From assembly GCA_017517745.1 (NCBI GenBank), contig JAFWYJ010000021.1:1-36363 (forward strand): DNA of 36,363 nt. Direction: 5' to 3'. A program made the translations under genes and the position numbers. Below, one piece after another: positions 4,156-32,579 of this stretch. The notes under the pieces are model-generated. The model was given only the letters and a program-made list of their open reading frames with translations, was not told the origin of the DNA and searched no databases. Source of the DNA: Clostridia bacterium. Its GTDB lineage: Bacteria > Bacillota > Clostridia > Oscillospirales > CAG-272. Every line of letters starts with the position of its first letter. Position 1 is the stretch's first letter.

Positions 4156-4198
4156 ACACAAAGAACATTTCGTTTCAAATCACGGAGGAATATCAGCC

Positions 4199-4393
4199 AT
4201 GGACATCTCTTTGATCATCAAAATCGCCGGCATCGGCATCCTTGTCGCGGTCGCATCGCAAATTCTTTCCAAAAGCGGGCGGGACGAGCAGGCAACGTTC
4301 GTGACCATCGCGGGAATCATTGTGGCTCTCATGCTTTTGATCACCGAAATCGGCGGGCTGTTTGATTTGGTGAGATCGATCTTCGGAATGTAA
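4199..4393 (+). CDS. spoIIIAC: Stage III sporulation protein AC
   Basis: A 64-residue, two-helix membrane protein beginning MDISLIIKIAGIGILV. SpoIIIAC is normally about 65-68 residues. The frame is open further upstream to 4106, but GGAGG at 4184-4188 sits 10 bases before the ATG at 4199 and homologues begin here. It is thought to form part of the mother-cell membrane platform of the SpoIIIA complex. The 43-base gap after spoIIIAB is the largest in the first part of the operon. Confidence 0.93.
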   Translation: MDISLIIKIAGIGILVAVASQILSKSGRDEQATFVTIAGIIVALMLLITEIGGLFDLVRSIFGM

Positions 4394-4394
4394 A

Positions 4395-4787: not shown

Positions 4788-4791
4788 CGCC

Positions 4792-5946: not shown

Positions 5947-5964
5947 CGGAAGAAAGGAGTGCGA

Positions 5965-6459
5965 ATGAAGACCTATTTACTGACACTCATTACCACCGCC
6001 TTTGCCGTCACGCTTGCCGGGATGCTATCGCCGCGCGGCGAGGGAGGCGGCATCGCAAAGCATCTCAAACTTCTCGGCGCCCTCCTTCTGGTCTGTGTTC
6101 TGATCTCGCCCCTGAGCGGCATCATAGAGGGACTCCGTGCATTTGCAAACGGTGAGATCGACCTCTCTTGGACCGAGGACAAGGATTCGGAAGACTATCG
6201 CGAAGACCTGCAAGGAACGCTCGACGGAGCATCACGGCAATACGTTTGCGAAATGCTGACACAAACGCTGGAACAACGCTTCTCTGTTTCCCGGGGAGAG
6301 ATCCGATGCGCGATCCAATGGAGCGAGAAGGAAAACACGCCTCGTCCCTCACACGTAAGCGTCATTCTCTCGGGGCAGGCGATCTGGAAGTCACCGAAGG
6401 AGATCGAGACGTTCGTCACAGAGCTTTTAGGATGCGGATGCTCGGTCGCGATCGAATAA
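5965..6459 (+). CDS. spoIIIAF: Stage III sporulation protein AF
   Basis: A 164-residue protein with two N-terminal membrane helices (about residues 3-21 and 36-54) and a soluble C-terminal domain of about 100 residues with the ring-building-motif size seen in SpoIIIAF. AAAGGAG (5953-5959) overlaps a possible GTG start at 5959, so the ATG at 5965, five bases downstream, is preferred. Sequence similarity in this family is low; position between spoIIIAE and spoIIIAG carries much of the identification. Confidence 0.9.
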   Translation: MKTYLLTLITTAFAVTLAGMLSPRGEGGGIAKHLKLLGALLLVCVLISPLSGIIEGLRAFANGEIDLSWTEDKDSEDYREDLQGTLDGASRQYVCEMLTQTLEQRFSVSRGEIRCAIQWSEKENTPRPSHVSVILSGQAIWKSPKEIETFVTELLGCGCSVAIE

Positions 6460-6478
6460 AAAAGAAAGGAGGAACAAT

Positions 6479-6991
6479 ATGTTTTCATTCTGGAAAAGCC
6501 GTGACGGAGCAGACAAAAAAGAAAGCTCGGTGCGTCCGTTCCTGATCGTCATCGCTGCCTTGGTGGGCATTGCGCTTTTGCTCTTCGGCGATCGGATCCC
6601 ATTTGGAAAGGAAACGGTGCAGGAAAGCTGCGAAAATTCCGACGAGGATGAGCTGATGCGCTATCAAGACTATCTGGAAGAGCGTGTGAAGCTGCTCTGC
6701 GAATCGGTCGCGGGTGTGAAAAACGTCACCGCCGTTGTCACACTTTCGGGCGGATTTGAGAAGATCTATGCCACAGAGATCGTGGAGGGTGGAGAGGAAT
6801 ACGTCATCATCGGAAGCGGATCGTCCGCCGAGGCGCTCTTCCTTTCGCGTGCCGCCCCCACGATTGAGGGCATCGGGATCGTCTGTCAAGGCGGCGGAAA
6901 TCCCGCGATCAAGCAGGAGCTCACCGCGCTGCTCAGCGCCACCTTTCATCTTTCCAGCAATCGCATTTATATCACCGAATCGCAAAAATAA
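6479..6991 (+). CDS. spoIIIAG: Stage III sporulation protein AG (ring component)
   Basis: A 170-residue protein with a short cytoplasmic tail, one membrane helix (FLIVIAALVGIALLLF, about residues 21-36) and a soluble domain. The domain contains the SpoIIIAG hallmark stretch ending GSGSSAEALFLSRAAPTIEGIGIV and a ring-building-motif fold resembling the EscJ/FliF group. SpoIIIAG multimerises into the large ring of the SpoIIIA-SpoIIQ channel. AAAGGAGG at 6468-6475 precedes the ATG. After this gene the operon has a 100-base gap that contains a second promoter-like sequence. Confidence 0.95.
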   Translation: MFSFWKSRDGADKKESSVRPFLIVIAALVGIALLLFGDRIPFGKETVQESCENSDEDELMRYQDYLEERVKLLCESVAGVKNVTAVVTLSGGFEKIYATEIVEGGEEYVIIGSGSSAEALFLSRAAPTIEGIGIVCQGGGNPAIKQELTALLSATFHLSSNRIYITESQK

Positions 6992-7027
6992 AATCACAGA
7001 TCTTTTTTCACAAATTGATCGGACACG

Positions 7028-7056
7028 GCATATTTAAAAGACACGGTTCATAATGT
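7028..7056 (+). promoter_or_regulatory. Internal sigma-E-like promoter before spoIIIAH
   Basis: GCATATT (7028-7034) and CATAATGT (7049-7056) are separated by exactly 14 bases. The -35 matches the sigma-E pattern KMATATT fully and the -10 keeps CATA-A and the final T except for one position. The predicted start near 7063 gives spoIIIAH its own short leader. An internal promoter in the spoIIIA locus is known from Bacillus subtilis, though at a different place. Confidence 0.6.
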
Positions 7057-7091
7057 TATAACGAACAAAAAAACACGGAGGAAATTTACCT

Positions 7092-7691
7092 ATGAAAACT
7101 CAAACAACCGCACTTTGCGAAGTGAAAAAGAACAACAAATTCAAAACCGTCATTCTCAAGTTTGGAAAAAGGAATCTCATCATTGCCTGCTCTGTCCTTC
7201 TGATCGGCGCGGCGGTCCTGCTCAATTGGATCCTCTTCACGGGCGGAAACAGCGACGGCGGCTACGACGGATATGATCAGCCCAGCGGAAACATCTCCGA
7301 CAATTTGAACCAGACGCCTCCCTCGAACGATGCAACCAACACCGACAACACCTATTTCTCCGCAACGCAGGTCAGCCGTCAAAGAGCACGCGACGAGGCG
7401 CTGGAGGTGCTTCAAGCAGTGGTTGACAACGCAGAATCGAGCGAGACCGCAAAAGCCGAAGCACTCGCAGGAATCTCCGCGATCGCGGACGAGATCCAAA
7501 AAGAAGCCAACATTGAGTCTCTCATCACTGCCAAGGGCTTTGAGCAGTGTGTCGCAGTCCTCAACGGCGACAGCATCAGCATCATCGTTTCGGCTGACAC
7601 CCTCCAGCCCGCTCAGCTCGCGCAGATCAACGCCATCGTCTATGAGCAGACCGGCATCGCTCCCGTCGGCGTGACTGTGATCAACAAGTGA
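7092..7691 (+). CDS. spoIIIAH: Stage III sporulation protein AH
   Basis: A 199-residue bitopic protein with a cytoplasmic N-tail, one membrane helix (about residues 29-49), a Gly/Asp/Asn/Pro-rich linker (50-85) and a C-terminal ring-building-motif domain beginning YFSATQVSRQRARDEALE and ending TGIAPVGVTVINK. SpoIIIAH reaches across the intermembrane space to bind forespore SpoIIQ; spoIIQ is not in this window. GGAGG precedes the ATG. It is separated from spoIIIAG by 100 bases with its own sigma-E-like promoter. Confidence 0.95.
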   Translation: MKTQTTALCEVKKNNKFKTVILKFGKRNLIIACSVLLIGAAVLLNWILFTGGNSDGGYDGYDQPSGNISDNLNQTPPSNDATNTDNTYFSATQVSRQRARDEALEVLQAVVDNAESSETAKAEALAGISAIADEIQKEANIESLITAKGFEQCVAVLNGDSISIIVSADTLQPAQLAQINAIVYEQTGIAPVGVTVINK

Positions 7692-10002: not shown

Positions 10003-10305
10003 TCATCCCTGCGCCAACTCGTTACCATCCTCAAACGTGACGTTCTCGACGGGTGTCACGGAGGTGAGCGCGTTGCAGTTACGGAAGGCGTTCTTCCCCA
10101 CGTGCGTCACGCCGCCGAGGTCAACCGTTGCCAAAGAGGTGCAATCGGCAAAGCACGATGCAGGCAAAGCAGTCAGCGTCTTGGGAAGTCGCACGTCGGT
10201 CAATGCGCTGCAACCGTAGAAGGCGTTGAGGCCGATGGAGGTAAGCTTTGCATATTCCCCGAACGTCACACCCTTCAGCTTCTTGCATCCGACAAAGGCG
10301 TTTGC
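10003..10305 (-). pseudogene. 3' part of the LRR lipoprotein gene, out of frame
   Basis: This frame continues the leucine-rich-repeat pattern of the upstream piece without a break in homology: NAFVGCKKLKGVTFGEYAKL and later NAFYGCSALTDVRLPKTLTAL, then FADCTSL and FRNCNALTSV. It lacks its own start and ribosome binding site. Adding one G to the run at 10305-10307 (read CCC on the plus strand) joins it in frame to the 5' part and gives a single product of 481 residues. The cause is a true frameshift or a base-calling or assembly error. Confidence 0.8.
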
Positions 10306-11447
10306 CCGATTGCCGTAACGCTGTCGGGAATGCGGAGCTCTTCAAGCCGTACACAACCCGAAAAGGCGCGCACGCCGATCGAGGTCAAGCCCTCGGGAAT
10401 CTCCACGCGCAAAAGCGAAGCGCAGTCAAAAAACGCGTGATCGCCGAGCGAAGCGGCAGAAAGCAGTTTGACGTCCACCAAATAGGTCGGATAAAATCCC
10501 CCCGAAAACGCAGGAGACGTTGCACCGAAGATATATCCGAGATAGTTATTCTCGGTCTGCGATCCGCCGACAAAGGGCAACACCGCGTTGCGCACCTTCC
10601 AACAGCCTTCAAACGCGCCAAAGCCGATCGAGGTCAAATTCCGCCCAAGCTCCAAGCGCGTCAAAGAAGCGCAAAAGCTGAGTGCGCCTTCTCCGATCTC
10701 GATCAATCCGTCCAAATTGACCGCCAGCAGGCTGCTGCACTGAAACATCGCGTATTTGCCAAGTGTTCTGAGGGTGCTCGGAAGATGGATATCCACCAAA
10801 TCATTGCAATCAAAGAGTGCATAGTCGGGAATCGAAGTCACTCCCTCTCCAATCTCAAGATATTGCAAACTCGGAGGCACGAGGGAGGCATTGTCCTCGT
10901 ATGTGACAGCCACTGGCTTCGTCTCATCGGTTCTTACGGCAAACAAATATCCCAAAAAAGGCATATCCGGCGTTCCCAGCACCGACGTGTGCAACGCACG
11001 CAGCTGTGTGGTGCCTGCCAGGATCCCCTCTCCAACCGCGGTCACGCTGTCGGGAAGATAGAGTGCCGTGATCGCCGTGTTTTGCGCAAACGCGCCGTCA
11101 CCGATGGCAACCACGGGAAGCCCGCCGATTTCCGAGGGTACGCGAACCTTCAGGTCATTTCCGACGTATCCTGTAATCGTCACCTTGCCGTCCTCCACCA
11201 AAGTCGAAAAACTTTCGGCGGGGGTTTGCGCGAGATCCCGGAAGGTATCCTCAAAAGCCTGCAGATACGCCAACCGCTCTTCGTTGTCGGTGTAATCGGT
11301 TTGCATCTCGGACGGGATCGGTGCCAGCGTCTCGGTCTCCTCCGTGTCGGTCTCGGTCGGTTTTTCCTCTTGATTTGCACACGCCGCCAAAGCAATACAC
11401 AGCATCAAAAACGCCAAACCGATTGCCATGATCTTTCTCCAAGCCAT
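10275..11447 (-). CDS. BspA-type leucine-rich-repeat lipoprotein, frameshifted
   Basis: The N-terminal 390 residues of a secreted lipoprotein. A signal peptide ends in lipobox LAAC (Cys23), a Glu/Thr-rich linker follows, and then TpLRR/BspA repeats of the type SIGFGAFEGCWKV and ALFDCNDLVDIHLPSTL. Such repeats form curved surface domains used in adhesion or protein binding; the ligand is not known. ATG 11447 is preferred because AAGGA (11457-11461) lies nine bases away, while the ATG at 11456 abuts it. The frame ends early at 10275, about 30 bases past a G-run where a single base appears to be missing (10305-10307); the repeats continue in another frame to 10003. A full product would have 481 residues. 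Confidence 0.8.
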   Translation of the reverse strand: MAWRKIMAIGLAFLMLCIALAACANQEEKPTETDTEETETLAPIPSEMQTDYTDNEERLAYLQAFEDTFRDLAQTPAESFSTLVEDGKVTITGYVGNDLKVRVPSEIGGLPVVAIGDGAFAQNTAITALYLPDSVTAVGEGILAGTTQLRALHTSVLGTPDMPFLGYLFAVRTDETKPVAVTYEDNASLVPPSLQYLEIGEGVTSIPDYALFDCNDLVDIHLPSTLRTLGKYAMFQCSSLLAVNLDGLIEIGEGALSFCASLTRLELGRNLTSIGFGAFEGCWKVRNAVLPFVGGSQTENNYLGYIFGATSPAFSGGFYPTYLVDVKLLSAASLGDHAFFDCASLLRVEIPEGLTSIGVRAFSGCVRLEELRIPDSVTAIGQTPLSDARS

Positions 11448-11468
11448 TTCAAACATTCCTTTCCAAAA

Positions 11469-21690: not shown

Positions 21691-21770
21691 AAAAAACGAT
21701 TGCGATCTGCGGCACACATATTTTTTTCAAGAAAGCAAATACTAATCCCAAAAACCTCGGAGGGATGAAG

Positions 21771-23078
21771 ATGGAATCAATTTGGCAATCGGACGTGCCG
21801 CGCGTGCGCTTTGACGCATTGGAGGAAAACAAAAGCACGGATGTATTGATCATCGGAGGCGGAATCGCGGGGATTTTGTGCGCTTACAAGCTCAAAACCG
21901 CGGGTGTGGACTGTCTCTTGGTGGAAGCCGACCGCATCTGCGGCGGTGTCACGGGCTGTACCACAGCAAAGATCACGCTCTCTCACGGATGGATCTATGA
22001 CAAGCTGATCCGACGTTTTGGCGAAGAGCGAGCTCGACTTTATCTTGAGGCGCAGATCAACGCCACCAAGGAATATGCCGGACTTTGCCGTGAAATCGAT
22101 TGCAATTTTGAAAGAAAAGATTCTTACGTCTATTCCCTTCACAATCTCAAAAAAATCGAAAAGGAGGTCATCGCGCTGAACAGCCTCGGCATCGGTGCCG
22201 AATTTTCGAGAGCGCGAGAACTTCCCTTCGAGATCGCAGGCGCTTTGCGCGTCAGAAATCAGGCACAGTTTCACCCTTTGAAATTCTTATATGCGATCGC
22301 CAAGGATCTGCTGATCTATGAGCACACCAAGGTGATAAACCTCGAACCCAATCGGGCAATCGCAAACCAATCCGCAATCGCCTTCAAAAAGCTGATCGTG
22401 GCAACTCACTTTCCTGTGTTCAACAAGCACGGCGGCTATTTCCTCAAACTCTATCAGCATAGATCCTACGTCCTCGCGCTCAAGGGGGCGCCGACTATGT
22501 GCGGCATGTACGTGGACGAATCCGACACGGGACTGTCCTTCCGTACCTTCGGCAATCTTCTGCTGCTCGGAGGCGGAGGTCACCGCACCGGCAAACAAGG
22601 GGGATGCTGGCAAGAGCTGGAAGAATTCGCGAAAAAATACTACCCCAACGCCGAAATTGTCGGCAAGTGGGCAACGCAGGATTGCATGACGCTCGACGGG
22701 ATTCCCTATATCGGACAATACGCCAAGTCCCTGCCGAACGTATTCGTTGCAACGGGCTTCAACAAATGGGGCATGACGAACGCCATGGTCGCGTCTGATA
22801 TCCTCTGCGATCTCGTCAAGGGCAACAGCACCCCCTATGCCACCGTCTTTTCGCCCGCGCGCACGGTCCTGCGCCCACAGCTTGCCGTCAACGCTTTCGA
22901 GTCTGCCGTGGGGCTTCTTACCCCAACCGCCCCTCGCTGTCCTCACCTGGGATGTGCGCTCAAATATAACCGCGCCGAGCACACCTGGGATTGCCCCTGC
23001 CACGGCTCTCGTTTCACAAAAGACGGCGAGCTGATCGACAATCCCGCCACCGATGATCATCCGTCGATCAATCCATAA
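21771..23078 (+). CDS. FAD-dependent oxidoreductase with C-terminal Rieske motif
   Basis: A 435-residue protein: a DAO-type FAD fold with the dinucleotide motif DVLIIGGGIAGILCAYKL near residue 24, then a C-terminal Rieske [2Fe-2S] site with Cys390/His392 (CPHLGC) and Cys408/His411 (CPCHGS), plus the paired Cys395 and Cys410. It resembles the YhfW-type family of Firmicutes but the Rieske part is short: the ~50 residues that normally precede the first cysteine are nearly absent. The electron donor and substrate are unknown. The ATG at 21771 has GGAGGG six bases upstream; the ATG at 21765 touches it. A clear terminator follows, so the gene is a single unit. Confidence 0.88.
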   Translation: MESIWQSDVPRVRFDALEENKSTDVLIIGGGIAGILCAYKLKTAGVDCLLVEADRICGGVTGCTTAKITLSHGWIYDKLIRRFGEERARLYLEAQINATKEYAGLCREIDCNFERKDSYVYSLHNLKKIEKEVIALNSLGIGAEFSRARELPFEIAGALRVRNQAQFHPLKFLYAIAKDLLIYEHTKVINLEPNRAIANQSAIAFKKLIVATHFPVFNKHGGYFLKLYQHRSYVLALKGAPTMCGMYVDESDTGLSFRTFGNLLLLGGGGHRTGKQGGCWQELEEFAKKYYPNAEIVGKWATQDCMTLDGIPYIGQYAKSLPNVFVATGFNKWGMTNAMVASDILCDLVKGNSTPYATVFSPARTVLRPQLAVNAFESAVGLLTPTAPRCPHLGCALKYNRAEHTWDCPCHGSRFTKDGELIDNPATDDHPSINP

Positions 23079-23209: not shown

Positions 23210-23238
23210 TTGCAATCTTCAAGAAACAGTGCTATAAT
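23210..23238 (+). promoter_or_regulatory. Sigma-A-type promoter of the hdr-flox-frd operon
   Basis: TTGCAA (23210-23215), 17 bases, TATAAT (23233-23238). It is the only good promoter seen before the ten-gene operon. The predicted transcript start near 23245 leaves a leader of about 147 bases. Confidence 0.8.
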
Positions 23239-23244
23239 AAGAGG

Positions 23245-23391
23245 AATAAACTTTTCAAAACGACAGTCGCATACGCGAGCCGTTCCATGACAGCCGCTCT
23301 CAAGAATCTTGGCGGAGCTTGCTTTCCCGACGGCTGAAACGTTCGATGCGGTTTCCATCCCGAACAGACGGGATCAATCGGAGGTAATTAC
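23245..23391 (+). ncRNA. Structured 5' leader of the hdr operon, unidentified
   Basis: A leader too long for a simple untranslated region. AGCCGT (23278-23283) can pair with ACGGCT (23330-23335), enclosing GCTC-CAAG-AAT-CTTG-GAGC (23296-23318). A separate hairpin ATCCCG-AACAGA-CGGGAT (23357-23374) ends six bases before GGAGG and could cover the ribosome binding site. I do not recognise a known riboswitch class. It contains no credible gene. Confidence 0.45.
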
Positions 23392-24186
23392 ATGAAGGTT
23401 CGTTATTTCCCGGGATGCACTTTGAAGAACCGAGCGAAGGATCTGGATACCTACGCGTACAGATCCGCCGAGGCTCTGGGGATCACTCCGGAAGAAATTG
23501 AAAATTGGCAGTGCTGCGGCGGTGTCTTTACCACCGCTCGGGACGAGGTGGCAACCAAGCTTGCTTCGGTTCGCGCGCTGAAGGACGCGAGTGACAGCAA
23601 CCTCCCCCTCGTAACGGTTTGCTCCGCTTGTCACAACGTGATCAAGCAAACGAATCACGCGATGCAAACGAACAAGGAATTCTCCGACAAGGTCAACCGC
23701 TATCTGGAAGCCGACGGCGGCTACAACGGCGAGGCAGAGGTCTATCATTACCTCGAAATGCTGCGCGACCTCGTTGGCTTTGAAAAGGTAAAGGAACGGG
23801 TTGTGAACAGCTTGAAGGGCAAGAAGATCGCGGCATATTACGGTTGCCTGCTTCTCCGCCCCCACAAAGTGATGCGCATGGACGATCCCGAAAACCCCAC
23901 CGTCATGGAGGATCTCCTCCGTGCGCTTGGCGCGGACGCGGTGGTATATGCCAGAAGAAACGAGTGCTGCGGCGGATACATTTCGGTGGAAAGCCCGGAC
24001 GCCGCCAAGAAAAACGCGAATGCCATTTTGGAAAATGCAAAGGCAGCGGGTGCCGAGATGATCATCACAGCTTGTCCGCTTTGCAAATACAACCTTGTGA
24101 AAAACGGCGCGGATATTCCCGTTGTTTATTTCACCGAGCTTCTCGCAGAAGCTTTGGGGGTGAAGGGAGAGCCCAATGAAACATAA
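23392..24186 (+). CDS. hdrB: Heterodisulfide reductase-like subunit B
   Basis: A 264-residue protein with two complete CCG domains: Cys9-x31-Cys41-Cys42-x34-Cys77-x2-Cys80 and Cys152-x39-Cys192-Cys193-x34-Cys228-x2-Cys231. In methanogen HdrB these motifs bind two noncubane [4Fe-4S] clusters that split disulfides. With all ten cysteines present the clusters should form. This organism shows no methanogenesis genes here, so the substrate is not CoM-S-S-CoB; in Hdr-Flox complexes the HdrB end passes electrons to a high-potential acceptor. GGAGG is seven bases before the ATG. It overlaps hdrC by 11 bases. Confidence 0.92.
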   Translation: MKVRYFPGCTLKNRAKDLDTYAYRSAEALGITPEEIENWQCCGGVFTTARDEVATKLASVRALKDASDSNLPLVTVCSACHNVIKQTNHAMQTNKEFSDKVNRYLEADGGYNGEAEVYHYLEMLRDLVGFEKVKERVVNSLKGKKIAAYYGCLLLRPHKVMRMDDPENPTVMEDLLRALGADAVVYARRNECCGGYISVESPDAAKKNANAILENAKAAGAEMIITACPLCKYNLVKNGADIPVVYFTELLAEALGVKGEPNET

Positions 24187-24565
24187 CAACGATCTTCGCG
24201 AAGAGATCCTCCGCATGAGCGGTGTGGACACTGCCAAGTGCATGAAGTGCGGCAAATGCTCCGCCACCTGCCCTGCCTACGATGAAATGGAATATCATCC
24301 GCATCAATTCGTGGGAATGGTGGAGATCGGAGAGATCGAACCGCTTCTCTCTTCGGAGTCGCTCTACAAATGCCTCTCCTGCTTCGCTTGCGTCGACAGA
24401 TGTCCCAGAGGCGTGGCGCCCGCAAAGGTGGTGGAAGCCGTTCGCCTGACCGCAATCAGACGCCAAGGCGCGAACCACATGACCGCCAACGACGTCCCGC
24501 TGATCTTGGAAACGGATACACCCCCACAGCTTCTCGTAAGCGCTTTCAGAAAATACACCAAGTAA
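24176..24565 (+). CDS. hdrC: Heterodisulfide reductase-like subunit C
   Basis: A 129-residue electron-transfer protein with two [4Fe-4S] sites: Cys22/25/28/32 (CMKCGKCSATCP) and Cys66/69/72/76 (CLSCFACVDRCP). It relays electrons between HdrA and HdrB. Its start lies inside hdrB, and it is followed after 15 bases by hdrA. No membrane segment is seen, so the complex is of the soluble HdrABC type, not the HdrDE type. Confidence 0.92.
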   Translation: MKHNNDLREEILRMSGVDTAKCMKCGKCSATCPAYDEMEYHPHQFVGMVEIGEIEPLLSSESLYKCLSCFACVDRCPRGVAPAKVVEAVRLTAIRRQGANHMTANDVPLILETDTPPQLLVSAFRKYTK

Positions 24566-24580
24566 AGGAGGAAAAGACAC

Positions 24581-26575
24581 GTGCAAAGAGTTGGAGTTTT
24601 TGTGTGTTGGTGCGGAAGCAATATTGCCGGTACGGTTGACGTGCAGGCAGTCTCCGAGGCTCTCAAAAACGAGCCCGGCGTGGTCTTTTCCGCCAATTAT
24701 CAATATATGTGCTCTCAGGCGGGTCAGGAAATGATCAAGACCGCCGTCAAGGAACACCACTTGACGGGAATCGTCGTCTGCTCCTGCTCCCCCCGCATGC
24801 ATGAGGCGACCTTCCGCAAAACGGCTGTCGCGGCAGGGCTGAACCCTTACATGGTTGAGATCGCCAATATCCGCGAGCAATGCTCCTGGGTACATAAAGA
24901 CGTGACGGCAGGCACCGAGAAGGCAATCATTCTCGGCAAGGCGGCAATCGCGAAGGTCAACCTCAACACGCCTCTGACGCCCGGTGAGTCTCCCGTCACC
25001 AAGCGCGCCCTTGTCATCGGCGGCGGTATCGCGGGGATCCAGACGGCTCTGGATATTGCCGATGCGGGTTTCCCCGTCGACGTCGTCGAAAAGCAGCCCA
25101 CCATCGGCGGCAAGATGGCACAGCTCGACAAAACCTTTCCCACGCTGGACTGCGCAGCTTGTATTCTGACGCCCAAGATGGTGGACGTTGCGCAGAATGA
25201 CAAGATCCGCATCTTTTCTTACAGCGAAGTGACCGACGTCCGAGGATTTGTCGGAAACTTTGACGTCACCATCAAGAAAAAAGCAAGATTCGTCAAGGAA
25301 GACGTTTGTACCGGATGCGGCGCGTGTGTCGAAAAATGTCCGATGAAGAAGATCCCAAACGAATTCAACCTCGGCATGGACAACCGTCACGCAATCTATA
25401 TTCCCTTCGCACAGGCTGTGCCAAAGGTCGCGACCATTGATCCCGATGCCTGCAATATGCTCAAAAACGGCAAATGCGGAATCTGCTCAAAGGTCTGCGC
25501 GGCAGGCGCGATCGATTACAAGCAAAAGGATGAGATCATCGAGGAAACATACGGTGCGATCGTTGTCGCGACGGGCTTCAATCCCATCAGCATGGAGAAA
25601 TTCGACGAATATGCATACAGCCAATCCAAGGACGTCATCACGTCTCTGGAATTCGAACGTCTGACCAACGCGGCAGGACCCACTGCAGGCATGCTGGTCC
25701 GTCCCTCCGACGGAAAACATCCTCACACCCTCGTGTTCGTTCAGTGTGTGGGCTCGCGCTGTGAATCCTGTGCCGAAAAGGGCAAGGAATATTGCTCGAA
25801 GATCTGCTGTATGTATACCGCAAAGCACGCGATGCTCACAAGAGACAAATATCCCGACACCGAGGTCTACGTCTTCTACGTCGACGTCAGGACGCCCGGA
25901 AAGAACTTTGACGAGTTCTATCGCCGCGCGGTGGAGGAATACGGCGTGAAGTACGTCAAGGGCATGGTCGGCAAAATCGTGCCCGAGGGAGACAAGCTCA
26001 AGGTGCAAGCCTCTGATCTGATCGCAAACAAACAGCTTCACCTCGATGCCGATCTCGTGGTCCTCGCTGCGGCGATCGAACCCGATCACTCGGCACGGCC
26101 TCTCGCAACCATGCTGACCGCAAGCATGGATACCAACGATTTCTTCACCGAAGCACATCCCAAGCTCCGTCCCGTGGAAAGTCCCACTGCGGGAGTCTTC
26201 CTTTCGGGCACTTGCCAAGGTCCCAAAGATATTCCGGAGACCGTATCTCAGGCGGGCGCGGCGGCATCCAAGGTCATCGGTCTCTTGGTCAAGGATAAAC
26301 TCACGGGAAATCCCTGCGTCGCAATCGCGAACGAGCTGACGTGCAACGGCTGCTCGAGCTGCGAGAGAGTCTGCCCCTACGGCGCGATCTCTTATCTTGA
26401 TAAGGAATTCCGCATGCCGGACAGAACCACCAAGATCCGACGTGTGGCGTCTGTCAATCCCGCTGTCTGCCAGGGGTGCGGCGCATGTACCGTCGCTTGT
26501 CCTTCGGGCGCGATGGATCTGAACGGATTCATGAACAATCAAATCATGGCGGAGGTTGATGCAATATGCAAGTAA
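24581..26575 (+). CDS. hdrA: Heterodisulfide reductase-like subunit A, bifurcating flavoprotein
   Basis: A 664-residue flavoprotein. An N-terminal domain has cysteines at 9, 11, 44, 67, 69 and 101. The FAD-binding GGGIAG lies at 147-152, with the HdrA-specific LDCAACILTPKM (Cys191, Cys194). Ferredoxin-type motifs occur near 243-253 and 286-306, and two more at the C-terminus (Cys588 and Cys630 begin them). In bifurcating complexes this FAD splits electron pairs between ferredoxin and the HdrB branch. The start is GTG at 24581 with AAAGGAGG upstream. Its last bases overlap the next gene by ten. The domain order matches the single-HdrA form, without a fused MvhD. Confidence 0.93.
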   Translation: MQRVGVFVCWCGSNIAGTVDVQAVSEALKNEPGVVFSANYQYMCSQAGQEMIKTAVKEHHLTGIVVCSCSPRMHEATFRKTAVAAGLNPYMVEIANIREQCSWVHKDVTAGTEKAIILGKAAIAKVNLNTPLTPGESPVTKRALVIGGGIAGIQTALDIADAGFPVDVVEKQPTIGGKMAQLDKTFPTLDCAACILTPKMVDVAQNDKIRIFSYSEVTDVRGFVGNFDVTIKKKARFVKEDVCTGCGACVEKCPMKKIPNEFNLGMDNRHAIYIPFAQAVPKVATIDPDACNMLKNGKCGICSKVCAAGAIDYKQKDEIIEETYGAIVVATGFNPISMEKFDEYAYSQSKDVITSLEFERLTNAAGPTAGMLVRPSDGKHPHTLVFVQCVGSRCESCAEKGKEYCSKICCMYTAKHAMLTRDKYPDTEVYVFYVDVRTPGKNFDEFYRRAVEEYGVKYVKGMVGKIVPEGDKLKVQASDLIANKQLHLDADLVVLAAAIEPDHSARPLATMLTASMDTNDFFTEAHPKLRPVESPTAGVFLSGTCQGPKDIPETVSQAGAAASKVIGLLVKDKLTGNPCVAIANELTCNGCSSCERVCPYGAISYLDKEFRMPDRTTKIRRVASVNPAVCQGCGACTVACPSGAMDLNGFMNNQIMAEVDAICK

Positions 26576-27000
26576 CCGAATATAAACCCTTGATCGTTGC
26601 ATTTTGTTGCAACTGGTGCTCCTACGCGGGTGCCGATCTTGCGGGAAACAACCGCCTGGCATACCCCGCCGACGTCAAGATCATCCGTGTTCCCTGCTCC
26701 TGCCGCGTGAATCCCACGTTCATTCTTCGCGCGTTCCAACGAGGCGCTGACGGCGTGATCATCTGCGGCTGCCACCCGGGTGACTGCCATTACACCTCGG
26801 GCAACTATTACACCCGTCGCCGTATGGCGACACTCTTCTCGATGCTTGACTTCCTCGGCATCGAGAGAGAACGCACCCGCGTTGAGTGGGTATCTGCGGC
26901 AGAGGGGGCTAAGTTTGCCGCAACGATGAACGAGTTTGCACAAAAGGTAGCGGCACTTGGCGAAAATAAGAGATTGGAGGATCTGAGATGCAAAAAATAA
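26566..27000 (+). CDS. mvhD: MvhD/FloxD-type iron-sulfur subunit
   Basis: A 144-residue protein of the hydrogenase delta-subunit family, which binds a [2Fe-2S] cluster and connects an electron-input module to HdrA. Conserved cysteines are Cys14/15/18, Cys44/46, Cys67/69 and Cys74, including the family stretch IICGCHPGDCHYTSGNYYT. No hydrogenase subunits (MvhA/MvhG) follow, so electrons must arrive from the NAD-binding module encoded next. It overlaps hdrA and the next gene on both sides, consistent with a fixed-stoichiometry complex. Confidence 0.9.
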   Translation: MQVTEYKPLIVAFCCNWCSYAGADLAGNNRLAYPADVKIIRVPCSCRVNPTFILRAFQRGADGVIICGCHPGDCHYTSGNYYTRRRMATLFSMLDFLGIERERTRVEWVSAAEGAKFAATMNEFAQKVAALGENKRLEDLRCKK

Positions 27001-27986
27001 CGCGTGAACAGCTGATTGATCAAGCATCCGAGCTCCTCGCGAACGGCACGGTCAGCACTGTACTCGGTTGGGGTGCGGGCGAATTTGGCTACGACGTGAC
27101 TCCGACTCTTTTCAAAACCGCGGAAGAGATGCAAAACGGCTTTGTTTTCAACGATTTCTGCGGAGCAAACTTTTCCAAATATCTCGTTTCCAAAACGAAA
27201 ACGCTTGAGGGAAAGCTTCTCGTTTTCCTCAAGCCTTGCGACACGTACAGCTTCAATCAACTCCTGACCGAGCATCGCTTCGACCGCGAAAAGGTCTATG
27301 TCGTGGGGATTCCCTGCGAAGGCATGGCTGATATCGCCAAGGTCAAGGAAATCTCGGGAGAAGGGATCTCCTCGATCGCGTCGGACGGCGACCGGATCGT
27401 GGTCACCACTCTGTACGCCGACGCGCCCGTGAAAATCGATGCGCGCAACGTGCTTGCCGAGCGTTGCATCCATTGCAAGAGCAAAAAACACGTGGCTTAC
27501 GATACACTTCTCGGCGAGGAGGGTGACGTTGTGGCATCTGCTCGCTTTGACGAGGTCACGCGACTGGAGTCCATGACGCCGGACGAACGCTTTGCCTTCT
27601 GGCAGAACGAGCTCTCCAAGTGCATCCGTTGCAACGCCTGCCGTGACGCTTGCCCTGCTTGCACTTGCGAAACGTGCGTTTTTGACAATCCGAAATCGGG
27701 CGTGGAAAACAAATCCCCCTCCAACAGCTTTGAGGAACAGATGTTTCACATCATCCGAGCCTTTCACGTCGCAGGCCGTTGCACCGACTGCGGCGAATGT
27801 GCAAGAGTTTGTCCTCAAAACATTCCGCTCCACCTGCTCAACCGCAAATTCATCAAGGACATCAATACGTTCTACGGCGAATATCAGGCGGGAGCCGAGG
27901 TCGGTTCGAGATCGCCTTTGACAGACTACACCACCGAAGATCTTGAACCGAGCGAGATTTTTGTCGGGAGGAATGAACATGCTTAA
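26988..27986 (+). CDS. Flox-type Fe-S subunit (FloxC-like, FrhB/4Fe-4S)
   Basis: A 332-residue protein. The N-terminal half resembles F420-hydrogenase beta/formate-dehydrogenase beta proteins (KPCDTYSFNQLL at 82-93, VVGIPCEGM at 105-113). Cys160/163 and then two ferredoxin sites follow: Cys212/215/218/222 (CIRCNACRDACP) and Cys265/268/271/275 (CTDCGECARVCP). Extra cysteines at 225, 227 and 230 may hold another cluster. It belongs to the input arm between the NAD-binding subunit and MvhD. Assignment as FloxC rather than FloxB follows gene order and is provisional. TTGGAGG precedes the ATG. Confidence 0.85.
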   Translation: MQKITREQLIDQASELLANGTVSTVLGWGAGEFGYDVTPTLFKTAEEMQNGFVFNDFCGANFSKYLVSKTKTLEGKLLVFLKPCDTYSFNQLLTEHRFDREKVYVVGIPCEGMADIAKVKEISGEGISSIASDGDRIVVTTLYADAPVKIDARNVLAERCIHCKSKKHVAYDTLLGEEGDVVASARFDEVTRLESMTPDERFAFWQNELSKCIRCNACRDACPACTCETCVFDNPKSGVENKSPSNSFEEQMFHIIRAFHVAGRCTDCGECARVCPQNIPLHLLNRKFIKDINTFYGEYQAGAEVGSRSPLTDYTTEDLEPSEIFVGRNEHA

Positions 27987-29007
27987 ATGCTCTCTTGACA
28001 ACGTTCAAACCCTCTTTGCCGAAATTGCAAAAGAGGCGAAGCTGTATCTGCCCATCGACAACGCGGACGGAACCGCCGTCTTTGGCGAATGGAGCCGAGG
28101 TGTCGCGTGGTCGAACGCGCTGAACACCGCAAAAAGCCCCAAGGATTTCTTCTTTCCCCAGACCGAGGATCTGATGAGATTCCGTACCGAGGGCAAAAAG
28201 ATCGAGGTCATCGACGTCAGACGTGAATCCGATGATTTCGTGGTCTTTGGCGTCCGCGCGTGCGACGTCAAAAGCTTTGACGTGCTGGACAGAGTCTTCC
28301 TCAGCGAGCCTTGCGACAGTTTTTATGCCGAGAAACGCGCGCACGGCATCATCGTTTCTCTGGCTTGCACAAGGCCCGCCGAAACCTGCTTTTGCGGCAT
28401 ATTCGGCATCCATGCGGCCGAGCCGGCGGGAGACGTCAGCGCATGGAAGACCGAAGATGCGCTCTATCTTCGCGCCAACACCGAAAAAGGAACCGCACTT
28501 GTTGCCCGTCTTTCCTCTGTTTTGGAGGAATGCTCCGACGATGCGGTAAATGCTCAGAAGGAAAGCATCGCGAAGATCATGAACAAGCTCCCCCTGAAGG
28601 ACCTTTCCACCGAAGCCTTCGGCGGCGGAAAAACGCAAGACCTCTTCCATTCTCCCGCTTGGGACGCGCTTTCTTCGGCATGTCTGGGGTGCGGCACCTG
28701 CACCTTCGTTTGTCCCACCTGTCAGTGCTATGACATCAAGGACTTCAACACCGGAAACGGTGTCATCCGTTACAGATGTTGGGATTCCTGCATGTATTCC
28801 GAGTTCACCAAAATGGCACACGGAAACAACAGACTCACACAAAAGGAGCGTTTCCGACAGAGATTTATGCACAAGCTGGTCTACTACCCCGAAAACAATG
28901 ACGGACTCTTCGGCTGTGTTGGTTGCGGCAGATGCCTCGCAAAGTGCCCGATCTCGATGAATATCGTGAAAGTAATGAAACAGATCGGAGGAAACAAAGG
29001 TGAATAA
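27979..29007 (+). CDS. Flox-type Fe-S subunit (FloxB-like; sulfhydrogenase beta/AsrA-like)
   Basis: A 342-residue protein of the HydB/AsrA type. The N-terminal region includes FGVRACDVKSF (90-100), and the C-terminal pair of [4Fe-4S] motifs is Cys235/238/241/245 (CLGCGTCTFVCP) and Cys313/316/319/323 (CVGCGRCLAKCP). The same family occurs in sulfhydrogenases, anaerobic sulfite reductase and Flox complexes. The catalytic subunits of the first two are absent here, so Flox is the best fit. I set the start at ATG 27979, seven bases after GGGAGG; the ATG at 27973 is too close. It overlaps both neighbours by eight bases. Confidence 0.86.
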   Translation: MLKCSLDNVQTLFAEIAKEAKLYLPIDNADGTAVFGEWSRGVAWSNALNTAKSPKDFFFPQTEDLMRFRTEGKKIEVIDVRRESDDFVVFGVRACDVKSFDVLDRVFLSEPCDSFYAEKRAHGIIVSLACTRPAETCFCGIFGIHAAEPAGDVSAWKTEDALYLRANTEKGTALVARLSSVLEECSDDAVNAQKESIAKIMNKLPLKDLSTEAFGGGKTQDLFHSPAWDALSSACLGCGTCTFVCPTCQCYDIKDFNTGNGVIRYRCWDSCMYSEFTKMAHGNNRLTQKERFRQRFMHKLVYYPENNDGLFGCVGCGRCLAKCPISMNIVKVMKQIGGNKGE

Positions 29008-29833
29008 CATGGGCGACACTTTGATTCCTTCTGTCGGAGTCATCACCGACGTGCGCATCGACACCCCCGATATCAAAACCTTCCGTGTGGTAACCTCAGA
29101 CGGAAAAAAGGCGTTTGATCACCGTCCGGGGCAATGCGCGATGCTCTCGATTCCCGGAGTCGGAGAGGCGATGTTCTCGATCACCTCTTCTCCCACAAAC
29201 ACCGAATATATGGAGTTCTCCATCAAGAAGTGCGGATGTGTGACCGAATGGCTCCATCAAGCAGAGGTGGGGCAGCAAATCACCATCAGAGGCCCCTACG
29301 GCACCCCCTTCCCCGTGGATGACGTGTTTGCGGGAAAGGATCTGCTCTTCATCGCGGGTGGTGTCGGATTGGCACCTTTGCGCTCTGTCATCAACTACTG
29401 CCGTCATTATCGCGACCGCTACGGAAACATCGACATCGTTTACGGCTCGCGCAGCAAGGCGGATCTGCTGGACTACCGTGAGATCATCGAAGAGTGGGCG
29501 AACGATGCGGGCGTAAAGGTCCATCTCACGATCGACAATCCTCAACCCGATTGGGACGGACACGTCGGCTTTGTTCCAAGCTACGTCAAGGAGCTTGGCT
29601 TTGACACCGACAAAACCGCAGTGCTCTGCGGTCCTCCCATCATGATCAAATTCACTCTGGAAGCGCTTGTCGCCCTCGGCTTTGACAAAAGGCAGGTCTA
29701 CACCACGCTTGAGCTTCGCATGAAGTGCGGCGTCGGCAAGTGCGGAAGATGTAACGTGGGCGCGAAGTACGTTTGCAAGGACGGTCCCGTGTTCAGATGC
29801 GACGAGCTTGAAGAGCTGCCGAGCGAATATTAA
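29000..29833 (+). CDS. Flox-type FAD/NAD(P)-binding subunit (FloxA-like; HydG/AsrB-like)
   Basis: A 277-residue ferredoxin-NADP-reductase-type module: an FAD-binding barrel with RPGQCAMLSIPG and FSITSSP, an NAD-binding fold with LFIAGGVGLAPLRSVINYC and AVLCGPPIMIKF, and a C-terminal [2Fe-2S] loop with Cys243, 248, 251, 259 and 267. It should oxidise NADH or NADPH and feed electrons into the complex. I use the GTG at 29000, eight bases after GGAGG and overlapping the previous stop; an ATG at 29009 with AAAGGTGA in front is an equal alternative. Confidence 0.9.
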   Translation: MNNMGDTLIPSVGVITDVRIDTPDIKTFRVVTSDGKKAFDHRPGQCAMLSIPGVGEAMFSITSSPTNTEYMEFSIKKCGCVTEWLHQAEVGQQITIRGPYGTPFPVDDVFAGKDLLFIAGGVGLAPLRSVINYCRHYRDRYGNIDIVYGSRSKADLLDYREIIEEWANDAGVKVHLTIDNPQPDWDGHVGFVPSYVKELGFDTDKTAVLCGPPIMIKFTLEALVALGFDKRQVYTTLELRMKCGVGKCGRCNVGAKYVCKDGPVFRCDELEELPSEY

Positions 29834-29845
29834 AGGAGAAAACCC

Positions 29846-30520
29846 ATGGAAAAGACAGTCAATATATTTCTTTTCGGCAAAAAATACGCAGTTCCCGAAA
29901 ATCTGACGATTATGACGGCGATGGAATATGCGGGCTATCAGCTCGTGCGCGGATGCGGCTGCAGAAACGGTTTTTGCGGTGCTTGCGCTACCATTTACCG
30001 CATCAAGGGCAACCGTCAGCTGCACGCTTGCCTCGCTTGTCAGACAAAGGTCGAGGACAATATGTACGTCGCAACCCTGCCCTTCTTCCCTCTCGTCAAA
30101 GAGGTCTATGATATGGAAAAGATCCCCGTCAACGAAACCGTGATGATGCAGCTCTATCCCGAGATCTATGCCTGCATCGGATGCAACGCCTGCACCAAGG
30201 TTTGTCCCCAGGGATTGAACGTCATGCAGTACGTTGCCTATGCACAGCGCGGCGAGTTTCAAAAATGCGCCGAGGAATCCTTCGACTGTGTCATGTGCGG
30301 CATTTGCTCGTCGAGATGCCCTGCAGGCATCTCTCACCCTCAGGTTGCCATGCTCGCAAGAAGAATCAACGGCAAATATCTGGCTCCCGGTTGCGCCCAT
30401 CTTGAGGAGCGTGTCAAGGAGATCAAGAACGGTGACTTCAACGAGCTGATCGAGGCTCTGATGCAAAAGCCCATCGAAGAAATGAAAGAGCTCTATCACA
30501 ACCGCGACATTGAAAAATAA
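29846..30520 (+). CDS. Ferredoxin-like fumarate reductase/succinate dehydrogenase iron-sulfur protein
   Basis: A 224-residue FrdB/SdhB-like protein. The N-terminal plant-type ferredoxin fold has Cys39, 44, 47 and 62 (CRNGFCGAC core) for a [2Fe-2S] cluster. The C-terminal dicluster domain has Cys110/113/116/120 and Cys148/151/154/158. Both C-terminal motifs keep four cysteines, so two [4Fe-4S] clusters are expected, unlike canonical SdhB with its [3Fe-4S] cluster facing the quinone site. Loss of that arrangement suits a soluble, quinone-independent enzyme. It follows the FAD/NAD subunit by 12 bases and precedes the flavoprotein by 13. Confidence 0.85.
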   Translation: MEKTVNIFLFGKKYAVPENLTIMTAMEYAGYQLVRGCGCRNGFCGACATIYRIKGNRQLHACLACQTKVEDNMYVATLPFFPLVKEVYDMEKIPVNETVMMQLYPEIYACIGCNACTKVCPQGLNVMQYVAYAQRGEFQKCAEESFDCVMCGICSSRCPAGISHPQVAMLARRINGKYLAPGCAHLEERVKEIKNGDFNELIEALMQKPIEEMKELYHNRDIEK

Positions 30521-30533
30521 GGAGAAGGCAAAC

Positions 30534-32138
30534 ATGTATTCTGAGCTGTTTCAAGAATCTCTGGCACGCGTGGAAGCGTCCAGAGAAAAAAACATTGCCC
30601 TTGATCCCATCCGCATGACGGCAGAGCAAAAGGAAACCGTGCTTGCTTCCTTCCATCCCGACTACAAGGTCGACGAATTTGCGGTCTTGACCGTCGGCCC
30701 CAACAAGGGGGACAAGGTTCCGAAGGAGCTTGCCGAAATTCTGCAGGCACACAGCCGCATTACCCCGAAGAGCGTATGCCTTGAGCATCCCGACTATGAA
30801 ACCGACGTGCTGATCATCGGCGGCGGTGGTGCGGGCGCGTCTGCCGCGATCGAAGCACACGAGGCGGGGGCGGACGTCACGGTCGTAACCAAGCTTCGTA
30901 TGGGAGATGCCAATACGATGATGGCAGAGGGCGGCATTCAGGCAGCCGACAAGCCAAATGATTCCCCCGCGATCCACTTTATCGATGCGTTCGGCGGCGG
31001 ACATTTCGCGGCAAAGAAAGAGCTGCTCAAAAAGTTGGTTTGCGACGCGCCCGAGGCCATTCAGTGGTTGAGCAATCTTGGCGTTGAGTTTGACAAGGAA
31101 GAGAACGGAACCATGGTAACCACCCATGGCGGCGGCACCTCCCGCAAGCGTATGCATGCGGCAAAGGACTATTCGGGGGCAGAGATCATGCGCACGCTTC
31201 GCGACGAAGTGATGAACCGCAAAATCCCCATCATTGATTTTACAGCGGCAATCGAGCTGATCCTCGATGAAAACGGCAACGCAGCAGGTGCGGTTCTCAT
31301 GAACATGGAAACCAAGGAGTTGCTCGTCGCAAAGGCAAAGACGGTTGTCATCGCAACCGGCGGCGCGGGAAGAATGCATTATCAGGGCTTCCCCACCTCC
31401 AATCACTACGGCGCAACCGCGGACGGTCTGGTTCTCGGCTACCGTGCAGGCGCGAAGCTTCTTTACGCCGAGACTCTGCAGTACCATCCCACCGGTGTCG
31501 CATTCCCCGAGCAGATCTTCGGCGCACTTGTGACCGAGAAGGTTCGCTCTCTCGGTGCAAAGCTGGTCAACAAGCATGGTGAAGTATTCATGCATCCGCT
31601 GGAAACCCGCGACGTGACCGCGGCTTCGATCATTCGCGAGTGCTCCGAGCGCAACAACGGCATTGATTGCAACAACGGCCACGGCGTTTGGCTCGATACG
31701 CCCATGATCGAGAAGATCGGCGGCGAGGGTACGATCATGAAGCGCATTCCCGCAATGTGGAGAATGTTTGAAAAGTACGGAATTGACATCCGATATGAGC
31801 CGATCCTCGTCTACCCCACGCTTCACTATCAAAACGGCGGCCTTGACATCACCGATGACTGCATGACCACCAACGTCAACAATCTCTTCGTTGCGGGTGA
31901 GGCGGTCGGCGGTATTCACGGCAAAAACAGACTGATGGGCAACTCACTGCTTGACATCATCGTCTTCGGCAGAAGCGCAGGCAAAAATGCAGCCGCAAAG
32001 GCAAAAAACACAAGGGTCGGCAGGCTGACGCTCGCTCACGTCGAACGATTTGAAAAGGAGCTGGCAAAGGCAGGCATCAAGACCGAAACGGTATCCCCCA
32101 AGCTTCTCCCCAACTACACCAAGCAAAACAACATTTGA
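30534..32138 (+). CDS. Fumarate reductase/succinate dehydrogenase-like flavoprotein
   Basis: A 534-residue FAD enzyme of the FrdA/SdhA/NadB superfamily. A non-canonical extension of about 88 residues precedes GGGGAG (96-101). Residues corresponding to the dicarboxylate site are present: His318 (HPTG), Arg359 (TRD, the proton-shuttle arginine), His431 (HY..GG) and Arg466 (HGKNRL). The histidine that binds FAD covalently in FrdA is Asn127, so FAD is probably non-covalent. The C-terminal capping domain of FrdA is missing. The start is ATG 30534 with GGAG upstream; the frame is open back to a TTG at 30510. No signal peptide is seen. The substrate is inferred as fumarate or a related enoate; aspartate oxidation is less likely given the context. 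Confidence 0.87.
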   Translation: MYSELFQESLARVEASREKNIALDPIRMTAEQKETVLASFHPDYKVDEFAVLTVGPNKGDKVPKELAEILQAHSRITPKSVCLEHPDYETDVLIIGGGGAGASAAIEAHEAGADVTVVTKLRMGDANTMMAEGGIQAADKPNDSPAIHFIDAFGGGHFAAKKELLKKLVCDAPEAIQWLSNLGVEFDKEENGTMVTTHGGGTSRKRMHAAKDYSGAEIMRTLRDEVMNRKIPIIDFTAAIELILDENGNAAGAVLMNMETKELLVAKAKTVVIATGGAGRMHYQGFPTSNHYGATADGLVLGYRAGAKLLYAETLQYHPTGVAFPEQIFGALVTEKVRSLGAKLVNKHGEVFMHPLETRDVTAASIIRECSERNNGIDCNNGHGVWLDTPMIEKIGGEGTIMKRIPAMWRMFEKYGIDIRYEPILVYPTLHYQNGGLDITDDCMTTNVNNLFVAGEAVGGIHGKNRLMGNSLLDIIVFGRSAGKNAAAKAKNTRVGRLTLAHVERFEKELAKAGIKTETVSPKLLPNYTKQNNI

Positions 32139-32153
32139 TAGGAGTATATAACC

Positions 32154-32504
32154 ATGGATTTGCATGTTCTGACAGACCTCTTTGAGGCATTGACCATTTT
32201 TTGTTTCGGTCTTTCCTGGCCAATCTCCATCCGCAAATCGCTGATTTCCCGAACCGCCAAGGGCAAGAGCCTGTTCTTCGAGGTCTTCCTGTTGATCGGT
32301 TACGCCTTCGGCATTGCGCGAAAAACCATTCAGGTCGCCGCGCTTGGCTATCCGCTTGCGGGAACGGGAACTCTGGGCACCGTGATCTTCATCCTCAGTT
32401 TCTTCTTCTACGTTCTCAACTTCATCGAAATTTCGATCGACGTCGGACTCTATTTCCGCAACACCAAGCTGGACAAGCTGAGAGAAGAGGGCAAGGAAGT
32501 TTAA
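32154..32504 (+). CDS. Small PQ-loop-like membrane protein
   Basis: A 116-residue protein with about three membrane segments (roughly residues 8-27, 39-57 and 68-98) and a charged C-terminal tail. The stretch FGLSWPISIRKSLISRTAKG resembles a PQ-loop/SWEET-type half repeat, which normally forms small transport or cargo-sensing membrane proteins. It contains no histidine inside a membrane segment and so cannot be a heme-b anchor like FrdC or SdhC. It follows the flavoprotein by 15 bases with AGGAG nine bases before the ATG, so it belongs to the operon. Its role (dicarboxylate transport, membrane docking) is unknown. Confidence 0.75.
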   Translation: MDLHVLTDLFEALTIFCFGLSWPISIRKSLISRTAKGKSLFFEVFLLIGYAFGIARKTIQVAALGYPLAGTGTLGTVIFILSFFFYVLNFIEISIDVGLYFRNTKLDKLREEGKEV

Positions 32505-32550: not shown

Positions 32551-32579
32551 TTGACAAACCAAACTTTTTGTAGTATAAT
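32551..32579 (+). promoter_or_regulatory. Consensus sigma-A promoter of the ceramidase-fold gene
   Basis: TTGACA (32551-32556), 17 bases, TATAAT (32574-32579): a perfect match in both boxes and spacing. It starts a new transcript with a leader of about 94 bases after the hdr-flox-frd operon. Confidence 0.9.

Follow-up and report, generated by a model that had tools for sequence, protein, structure and literature searches.

A Flx-Hdr operon ending in a fumarate reductase pair in a Clostridia bacterium: a candidate NADH-driven, electron-bifurcating fumarate reductase

The window analyzed here is a stretch of 36,363 nucleotides that makes up contig C19 (JAFWYJ010000021.1) of the draft genome of a Clostridia bacterium (GCA_017517745.1; 2.17 Mb, 97% complete). 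It contains ten co-directional genes on the forward strand, which fill positions 23392 to 32504 in the order hdrB-hdrC-hdrA-flxD-flxC-flxB-flxA-frdB-frdA, followed by a gene for a small membrane protein. On the basis of comparative sequence analyses, we consider it probable, at roughly 0.77, that this operon encodes a single cytoplasmic, NADH-driven, electron-bifurcating complex that couples the reduction of fumarate to the reduction of ferredoxin. The idea of such a coupling was already published in 2019 to 2020 for a related bacterium, and the operon described here represents a further case of this proposed kind of system.

Gene Organization and Subunit Identities

The ten genes had been named as an hdr-flx-frd operon in a preliminary description of the window, and family scans of the encoded proteins agree with these names, all of the genes being located on the forward strand. 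With the start codons chosen here, adjacent genes overlap by 8 to 13 bases or are separated by gaps of 12 to 15 bases. The features of the operon are listed below.

23210..23238, + strand: promoter-like site TTGCAA-17-TATAAT with TG before the -10 element (10 of 12 consensus positions)
23392..24186, + strand: hdrB, two CCG domains with 10 Cys for two noncubane Fe-S clusters (family scans)
24176..24565, + strand: hdrC, two [4Fe-4S] motifs (family scans)
24581..26575, + strand: hdrA, GTG start, predicted FAD-dependent bifurcating subunit with ferredoxin domains (family scans, structure match)
26566..27000, + strand: flxD/mvhD, putative electron entry subunit to HdrA (FlpD PF02662, E 2e-55)
26988..27986, + strand: flxC, Fe-S subunit with two [4Fe-4S] motifs plus extra Cys (family scans)
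27979..29007, + strand: flxB, Fe-S subunit, AsrA/ShyB-like (ShyB 186 bits, Fer4_22 104 bits)
29000..29833, + strand: flxA, GTG start, FAD/NAD-binding with a DHODB-type Fe-S domain, predicted NADH entry (PF00175, PF10418, PF00970)
29846..30520, + strand: frdB, one 2Fe-2S domain and two [4Fe-4S] motifs, no CCG match (family scans)
30534..32138, + strand: frdA, fumarate-reductase-type flavoprotein, ATG start (family scans, active-site residues)
32154..32504, + strand: small membrane protein of a PQ-loop-like family (homolog in locus L117)

The most likely start of flxB is the ATG at 27979, which is preceded by GGGAGG 7 bases ahead; a second ATG is located at 27973, and the longest frame begins with the TTG at 27943. 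The longest frame of frdA begins with the TTG at 30510, and the ATG at 30534 was taken as the start. The promoter that had been proposed for the operon is present as a sequence match, but such sites were no commoner in the scan (3 sites) than in shuffled sequences (4.3 on average), and the evidence is therefore weak. Independent transcription of genes within the operon was also considered: no promoter-like site was identified inside the operon, which is a weak test given that the scan as a whole did not exceed the shuffles.

The matches to NCBIfam models cited for the ten operon proteins were all below the curated cut-offs, and the named Pfam matches were above them. HdrA, which carries an FAD site and ferredoxin domains, matched the HdrA2 family with 776 bits and the solved HdrA chain 5odc_A over its full length with 677 bits. 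HdrB contains two CCG stretches in which both cysteine-cluster motifs are kept, and its 10 cysteines were invariant in 96 of 96 sequences from the class and in all 10 sequences extracted from outside it. Similarly, the 8 cysteines of HdrC were conserved without exception in 97 of 97 class sequences and in 13 of 13 from outside the class. The NAD/FAD subunit FlxA, the Fe-S subunits FlxB and FlxC, and FlxD (186 bits to the FlpD/MvhD family) were recognized at the domain level, and no dedicated Flx model was matched in the family libraries that were scanned.

The best named family for FrdA was TfrA, with a score of 346.8 bits that does not reach the cut-off of 718, and for FrdB the N-terminal part of TfrB, with 44 bits. 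The family scans detected no CCG domain in FrdB; in this operon the CCG domains are located in the separate HdrB protein. FrdA has an N-terminal extension of about 85 residues and showed no match to the C-terminal family Succ_DH_flav_C.

Co-inheritance of the Nine-Gene Block within the Class

To describe the distribution of the genes, we used samples of up to 400 genomes each from the class and from the phylum. The class sample contained 391 genomes (390 without the host), in which FrdA was searched at E <= 1e-60 and HdrA at E <= 1e-100, and for the phylum sample only matches at E <= 1e-90 were used. A further set of named relatives consisted of the best 80 out of 470 candidates from the genome collection; these 80 are close kin with FrdA identities of 77% to 91%. 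Intergenic gaps of up to 1.5 kb were allowed, a locus in the synteny count of the 80 was considered cut by a contig end when less than 1.2 kb was left upstream, and the short loci L151 to L159 were excluded from the counts.

FrdA was identified in 53 of the 390 class genomes, HdrA in 56, and both proteins in 52 (Fisher p 1e-58, with kinship uncorrected). The only genome with FrdA alone, G071, is 75% complete, and its locus is truncated at a contig end; it shares an identical FrdA protein with G043, where HdrA is present as well. HdrA alone was found in 4 genomes, one of which is 62% complete, and the HdrA matches in the other three were 44% to 49% identical. The genes hdrA and frdA were found in the same orientation on a single contig in 46 of the 52 double carriers and on different contigs in the remaining 6. 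In 45 of the 46 same-contig cases, hdrA ended 3 to 5 kb before frdA, and the order of the two genes was reversed in G269; the median distance for all 46 was 3,991 bases.

The complete block hdrBCA-flxDCBA-frdBA was intact in 64 of the 80 named loci and in 31 of 40 further class loci. The blocks that were not intact comprised 24 loci cut by contig ends (16 and 8, respectively) and L130, the G269 locus, in which frdBA is followed by hdrBCA. Drift of frdBA away from the hdr-flx genes, which had been raised as evidence that would speak against a joint function, was thus not seen within the class. All five compared proteins were obtained from 91 of the 120 class loci, and across these 91 the pairwise distances of HdrA and FrdA were correlated with r 0.95. 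As a separate observation, the hdrA gene at G173:C34:71790-73771 is split into two overlapping parts that are read in different frames, due to a frameshift or an assembly error.

The FrdA and HdrA proteins of the window were 88% and 91% identical, respectively, to those of genomes from other orders of the class (G291, G359), and 78% and 82% to 83% identical to those of two positive genomes from its own order (G246, G298). Only 2 of the 17 same-order genomes listed contained the operon, and 15 were without it. Judged from these sequence comparisons, a transfer of the whole operon between lineages is possible.

Proposed Electron Path and Alternative Routes

In the proposed complex, NADH would be oxidized at FlxA, and the electrons would be transferred through FlxB and FlxC to FlxD and from there to the FAD of HdrA, where the pair would be split. 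One electron of each pair would reach ferredoxin through the [4Fe-4S] domains of HdrA itself, while the other would pass through HdrC, the two cysteine-rich clusters of HdrB and FrdB to the FAD of FrdA, where fumarate would be reduced to succinate. The net reaction would be 2 NADH + fumarate + oxidized ferredoxin -> 2 NAD+ + succinate + reduced ferredoxin. The potentials are -320 mV for NADH, about -500 mV for ferredoxin and +33 mV for fumarate; with these values the net reaction releases about 33 kJ/mol and is therefore possible. We infer from the gene content that the proteins form a complex, that HdrB delivers electrons directly to FrdB, that NADH is the donor, and that bifurcation occurs in the direction given here. 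The placement of the FrdAB-like pair at the end of the high-potential branch, as suggested in the preliminary description, is supported by the comparative genomic data, which are consistent with fumarate reduction being linked to that of ferredoxin.

A comparison with the TfrB profile provided further information about the transfer from HdrB to FrdB. FrdB aligned to positions 19 to 94 of the profile, HdrC to positions 132 to 220 and HdrB to positions 262 to 487, all with scores far below the TfrB cut-off. The three proteins thus map to a single TfrB chain of the methanogen thiol:fumarate reductase TfrAB, which represents a natural fusion in an order that fits an electron wire from HdrB to FrdB. 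HdrB scored alike against SdhE (155.8 bits), which is the HdrB-like subunit of 8-methylmenaquinol:fumarate reductase, and the methanogen HdrB (155.4 bits).

TfrB consists of one chain and takes its electrons from thiols. The coupling might also be indirect, such that Flx-Hdr would reduce a small disulfide and FrdBA would oxidize the resulting thiol to reduce fumarate, like the TfrAB enzyme of methanogens. It would fit such a route that HdrB has retained every cysteine of the two noncubane clusters, which cleave disulfides in methanogens, and that TfrA is the closest named family of FrdA. However, FrdB is without the CCG domain of TfrB, so that FrdBA has no obvious thiol site, and a search of the host genome that covered DsrC, not other small thiol carriers, gave no match to PF04358, with a positive E. 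coli control. The preliminary description had likewise pointed to the lack of a DsrC-like partner. A thiol-mediated route is less likely because of the missing CCG domain in FrdB and the missing DsrC, and we regard it as unlikely overall; direct bifurcation is the most economical reading.

The complex might also run mainly in reverse, with succinate and reduced ferredoxin being oxidized to form NADH by confurcation, as a syntroph would need. Enzymes of the SDH/FRD type are reversible in principle, and outside of the class the frdBA pair was also found in clusters with genes for malic enzyme and pyruvate carboxylase. However, this direction is disfavored by the standard potentials, and the position of the FAD-linking histidine is occupied by Asn127 in the FrdA protein of the window and by Asn in all 157 rows of the FrdA alignment (drawn from 159 loci, with the split gene L149/L150 excluded), an exchange that is tied to lost succinate oxidation in the FrdA protein of E. 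coli. Moreover, a ruminant gut sample is named in 50 of the 80 titles of the named relatives, and fermentation is the likely lifestyle in that environment. A mainly reverse function seems very unlikely.

Active Site of FrdA and the Electron Acceptor

FrdA has the fold and the catalytic His/Arg/Glu/Thr set of the fumarate reductase flavoprotein superfamily. The seven catalytic residues, which we take to bind or protonate fumarate, were invariant in the 157 rows, with the exception of a single T to S exchange. The preliminary description had given the substrate as fumarate or a related enoate. Fumarate is favored over a generic enoate because the active site is kept, and the genes adjacent to the operon in the relatives also point to fumarate. 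In 61 of the named loci, the sequence extended 8.7 kb or more ahead of frdA. Among these, fumC was located just before hdrB in 54 and was missing there in 7, and 50 of the 61 contained a gene of the lactate/malate dehydrogenase family (mdh-type) in addition to fumC. A gene for an AspT-type permease was located right after frdA in 65 of the 80 named loci and in 22 of the 40 further class loci, and within the stretch read the latter contained class-I fumarase in 17 cases and FumC in 11. From these patterns, and from the published succinate operon of Pseudoclostridium thermosuccinogenes, we infer that fumarate is the substrate in vivo.

The same machinery could also use another enoate as the acceptor, such as an aromatic or amino-acid-derived acrylate, at least in the present host, which seemingly lacks fumarase. 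The window itself is without fumarase, mdh or AspT-type permease genes next to the operon. However, all seven residues with a presumed role in fumarate binding or protonation are kept, and most of the near relatives with identical residues have fumC beside the operon, which makes a different acceptor highly improbable. In the FrdA tree, the nearest kin of the window include L034, which keeps fumC together with the same kind of small membrane protein.

Metabolic Context in the Host

The genome of the host encodes one RnfC protein and two [FeFe]-hydrogenase matches, all above the cut-offs, and one HdrA at E <= 1e-100. The ferredoxin reduced by the complex would then be re-oxidized by Rnf, with formation of an ion gradient, or by the [FeFe] hydrogenase. 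The absence of a hydrogenase, as stated in the preliminary description, holds for the window but not for the genome. Operation of the pathway without quinone would be in line with the lack of a match to the UbiA family in the host genome (14 of 14 control genomes were positive), although a scavenged quinone would still be compatible with this result. No match to an SdhC/D or FrdC/D anchor was found among the ten operon proteins, to which the anchor search was limited.

A few sets of observations weigh against the proposed function. The first concerns the contact between HdrB and FrdB, which, since the predicted structure of FrdB was unusable (pLDDT 58), is argued from the fusion and the synteny. 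The second concerns the supply of fumarate. Class-I fumarase was not found in the host genome at its 97% completeness, and FumC was not found by a family search that had positive controls but also missed PurB, which was expected there, so that the sensitivity of the search or the completeness of the genome is questionable. A protein search for FumC, run without a positive control, was also empty. The AspT permease was not found in the host genome, and no close relative of the operon-type MDH was present, the best match being 33% identical (also without a positive control). The single Lyase_1 match of the host was rejected as a fumarase since it corresponds to ArgH beside ArgG, both named by reading the sequence. 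Fumarate from arginine synthesis or from outside the cell would serve the host.

The third set of observations comes from more distant relatives. Across 39 loci from outside the class with FrdA identities of 50% to 63%, FrdBA occurred without a clear Hdr gene in 19, some of which were short or cut. These include 12 loci with fumarase, malic enzyme or pyruvate carboxylase (2 of which also match a cytochrome b protein), 3 with a Fer4/cytochrome b561 protein alone, and 4 with none of these partners (one cut by a contig end); L183 showed a weak HdrC-like match of 28%. In L190 to L192, frdBA adjoins the gene for a Fer4/cytochrome b561 protein downstream, the domains of which were seen in L190, and this arrangement suggests a quinone-linked version of the same pair. 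Because of the Hdr-less and cytochrome b561 loci, FrdBA appears to be a module able to take electrons from elsewhere.

FrdBA and Hdr Partners outside the Class

In the same 39 loci, HdrA was in view in 16, and HdrB and HdrC without HdrA in another 4; the link to Hdr thus extends beyond the class, but usually without Flx. Ten of the 16 loci (L163 to L167, L169 and L194 to L197) contained the gene order hdrC-hdrB-hdrA, an HdrA-like fusion, flxD, an Fe-S subunit and frdBA, or cut versions of it. In L163, where these proteins were read, the HdrA-like fusion protein is about 1070 residues long and the Fe-S subunit is weakly similar to FrhB/FdhB. A cluster of this type possibly encodes a bifurcating fumarate reductase that draws its electrons from another donor. 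L176 is similar to the L163 type with a different upstream order, and the order frdBA-hdrBCA was found in four loci (L171, L172, L182 and L185). The Flx type was identified in L177 only, where hdrC is located ahead of hdrB.

The Small Membrane Protein

The small membrane protein had been described as a member of the operon, and this is the case in the window, but it is not a constant part of the system since it was present in only 13 of the 80 named loci and 4 of the 40 others from the class. In each of these cases, its gene followed frdA on the same strand. The protein of the window showed no Pfam match; the homolog in L117 matched the PQ-loop family with 19.9 bits, below the cut-off of 22. 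For the 110 loci with 1.5 kb downstream, AspT was present in 2 of 14 with the small membrane protein and in 79 of 96 without it (Fisher 9e-7). The FrdA tree, inferred with FastTree (window included, two split-gene loci absent, 110 rows scored), contained 8 independent pairs that differ in the small membrane protein, and AspT showed the opposite state in 7 of these on average (median p 0.016, range 0.008 to 0.125).

A role as the membrane anchor of the reductase was rejected because the protein was present in only 17 of 120 loci and tends to alternate with AspT. This role is further weakened by L047 and L075, in which the gene starts about 3.9 kb after the start of frdA and AspT is present. The small membrane protein would instead be an accessory component and a candidate dicarboxylate permease, which in these loci tends to take the place of the AspT-type permease.

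Other Genes in the Window

Directly after the operon, a perfect match to TTGACA-17-TATAAT was found at 32551-32579 (+). It is followed by a ceramidase-like gene, read by eye with no Pfam match at E 0.1, and by a gene for an MFS transporter. Upstream of the operon, at 21765-23075 (+), is a gene for an FAD-dependent oxidoreductase (DAO) that carries a Rieske [2Fe-2S] domain at its C-terminus; it is located where most relatives have fumC. Spore-formation genes were found at 2747-7691 (+), with SpoIIIAB and SpoIIIAH above the curated cut-offs and SpoIIIAA and SpoIIIAE below them. The presence of such genes in the first 8 kb fits a clostridial host, which probably has spore formers among its ancestors. 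Additionally, we noted a gene for a B12-binding radical SAM protein of uncertain type at 41-1507 (-), for which every named family was far below the cut-off, and a gene for a BspA-type leucine-rich repeat protein, a probable surface protein, at 10275-11456 (-).

The contig being misbinned was considered and rejected. The tetranucleotide correlation of the window with stretches of three other host contigs was 0.80 to 0.85, compared with 0.78 to 0.84 among the latter themselves; this is no proof of the binning, since L031 from another genome was nearly as well correlated with the host stretches (0.69 to 0.78).

Relation to Known Systems and Significance

The FlxABCD-HdrABC system of sulfate reducers, such as Desulfovibrio vulgaris, contains the same kinds of subunits, is driven by NADH and is proposed to bifurcate electrons. 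The high-potential acceptor of that system is the DsrC disulfide, whereas the host of the window has no DsrC match and FrdBA is encoded in the same operon. HdrA and HdrB match solved chains of HdrABC-MvhAGD from methanogens over nearly their full lengths, and HdrC and MvhD match at the family level; in contrast to the methanogen complex, an NAD-binding Flx replaces the hydrogenase and fumarate reductase replaces the CoM-CoB heterodisulfide as the sink. Compared with TfrAB, which FrdA and FrdB resemble with scores below the TfrA and TfrB cut-offs, the window contains separate parts that stand together with HdrA and Flx. The flavoprotein fold, the active site and an SdhE-like HdrB are shared with complex II and the 8-methylmenaquinol:fumarate reductase SdhABE, in contrast to which the FAD-linking histidine is missing in the window and no UbiA-family gene was found in the host.

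The closest parallel is the succinate operon of Pseudoclostridium thermosuccinogenes, which combines genes for fumarate hydratase, Flx-Hdr and fumarate reductase with one for a hypothetical protein (PMC7282089). In that article, fumarate reduction is assumed to be linked to the reduction of ferredoxin "as proposed previously", with citation of a 2019 preprint. The operon is reported to be up about 4-fold under CO2 limitation, with significance not being reached for all subunits, and the last gene was suspected of succinate transport. The annotated order of that operon resembles the window: seven consecutive Flx-Hdr locus tags (RS03360-30) precede the two fumarate reductase tags (RS03325-20), and the last gene (RS03315) is the possible succinate transporter. 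Flx-Hdr is directly followed by frdB-frdA in both, and the same coupling has been proposed; the P. thermosuccinogenes operon has a fumarate hydratase gene that the window is without. Fumarate reductases of the rumen are mentioned in PMC6776011, and the link to Hdr is absent from the text examined. Text searches of the literature library used here found no biochemical test of the proposed coupling.

More broadly, and tentatively, FrdBA might serve as a plug-in terminal reductase for several cores, namely Flx (with NADH), the L163 type and bare hdrBCA (the L171 type), and these would together make up a widespread form of fumarate respiration that conserves energy without quinone and has Rnf or H2 as its end point. 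In this broader picture, the host would lack its own fumarase and be fed by imported or ArgH-derived fumarate, and the PQ-loop-like protein would replace the AspT-type permease as a dicarboxylate transporter.

If the proposed coupling is true, the conversion of fumarate to succinate, which serves as a hydrogen sink in the rumen, would save energy in these Clostridia, and neither quinones nor a membrane enzyme would be needed. One reduced ferredoxin would be gained per fumarate, able to drive Rnf or the release of hydrogen. The carriers are plentiful, with relatives encoded in 470 candidate stretches of the genome collection.

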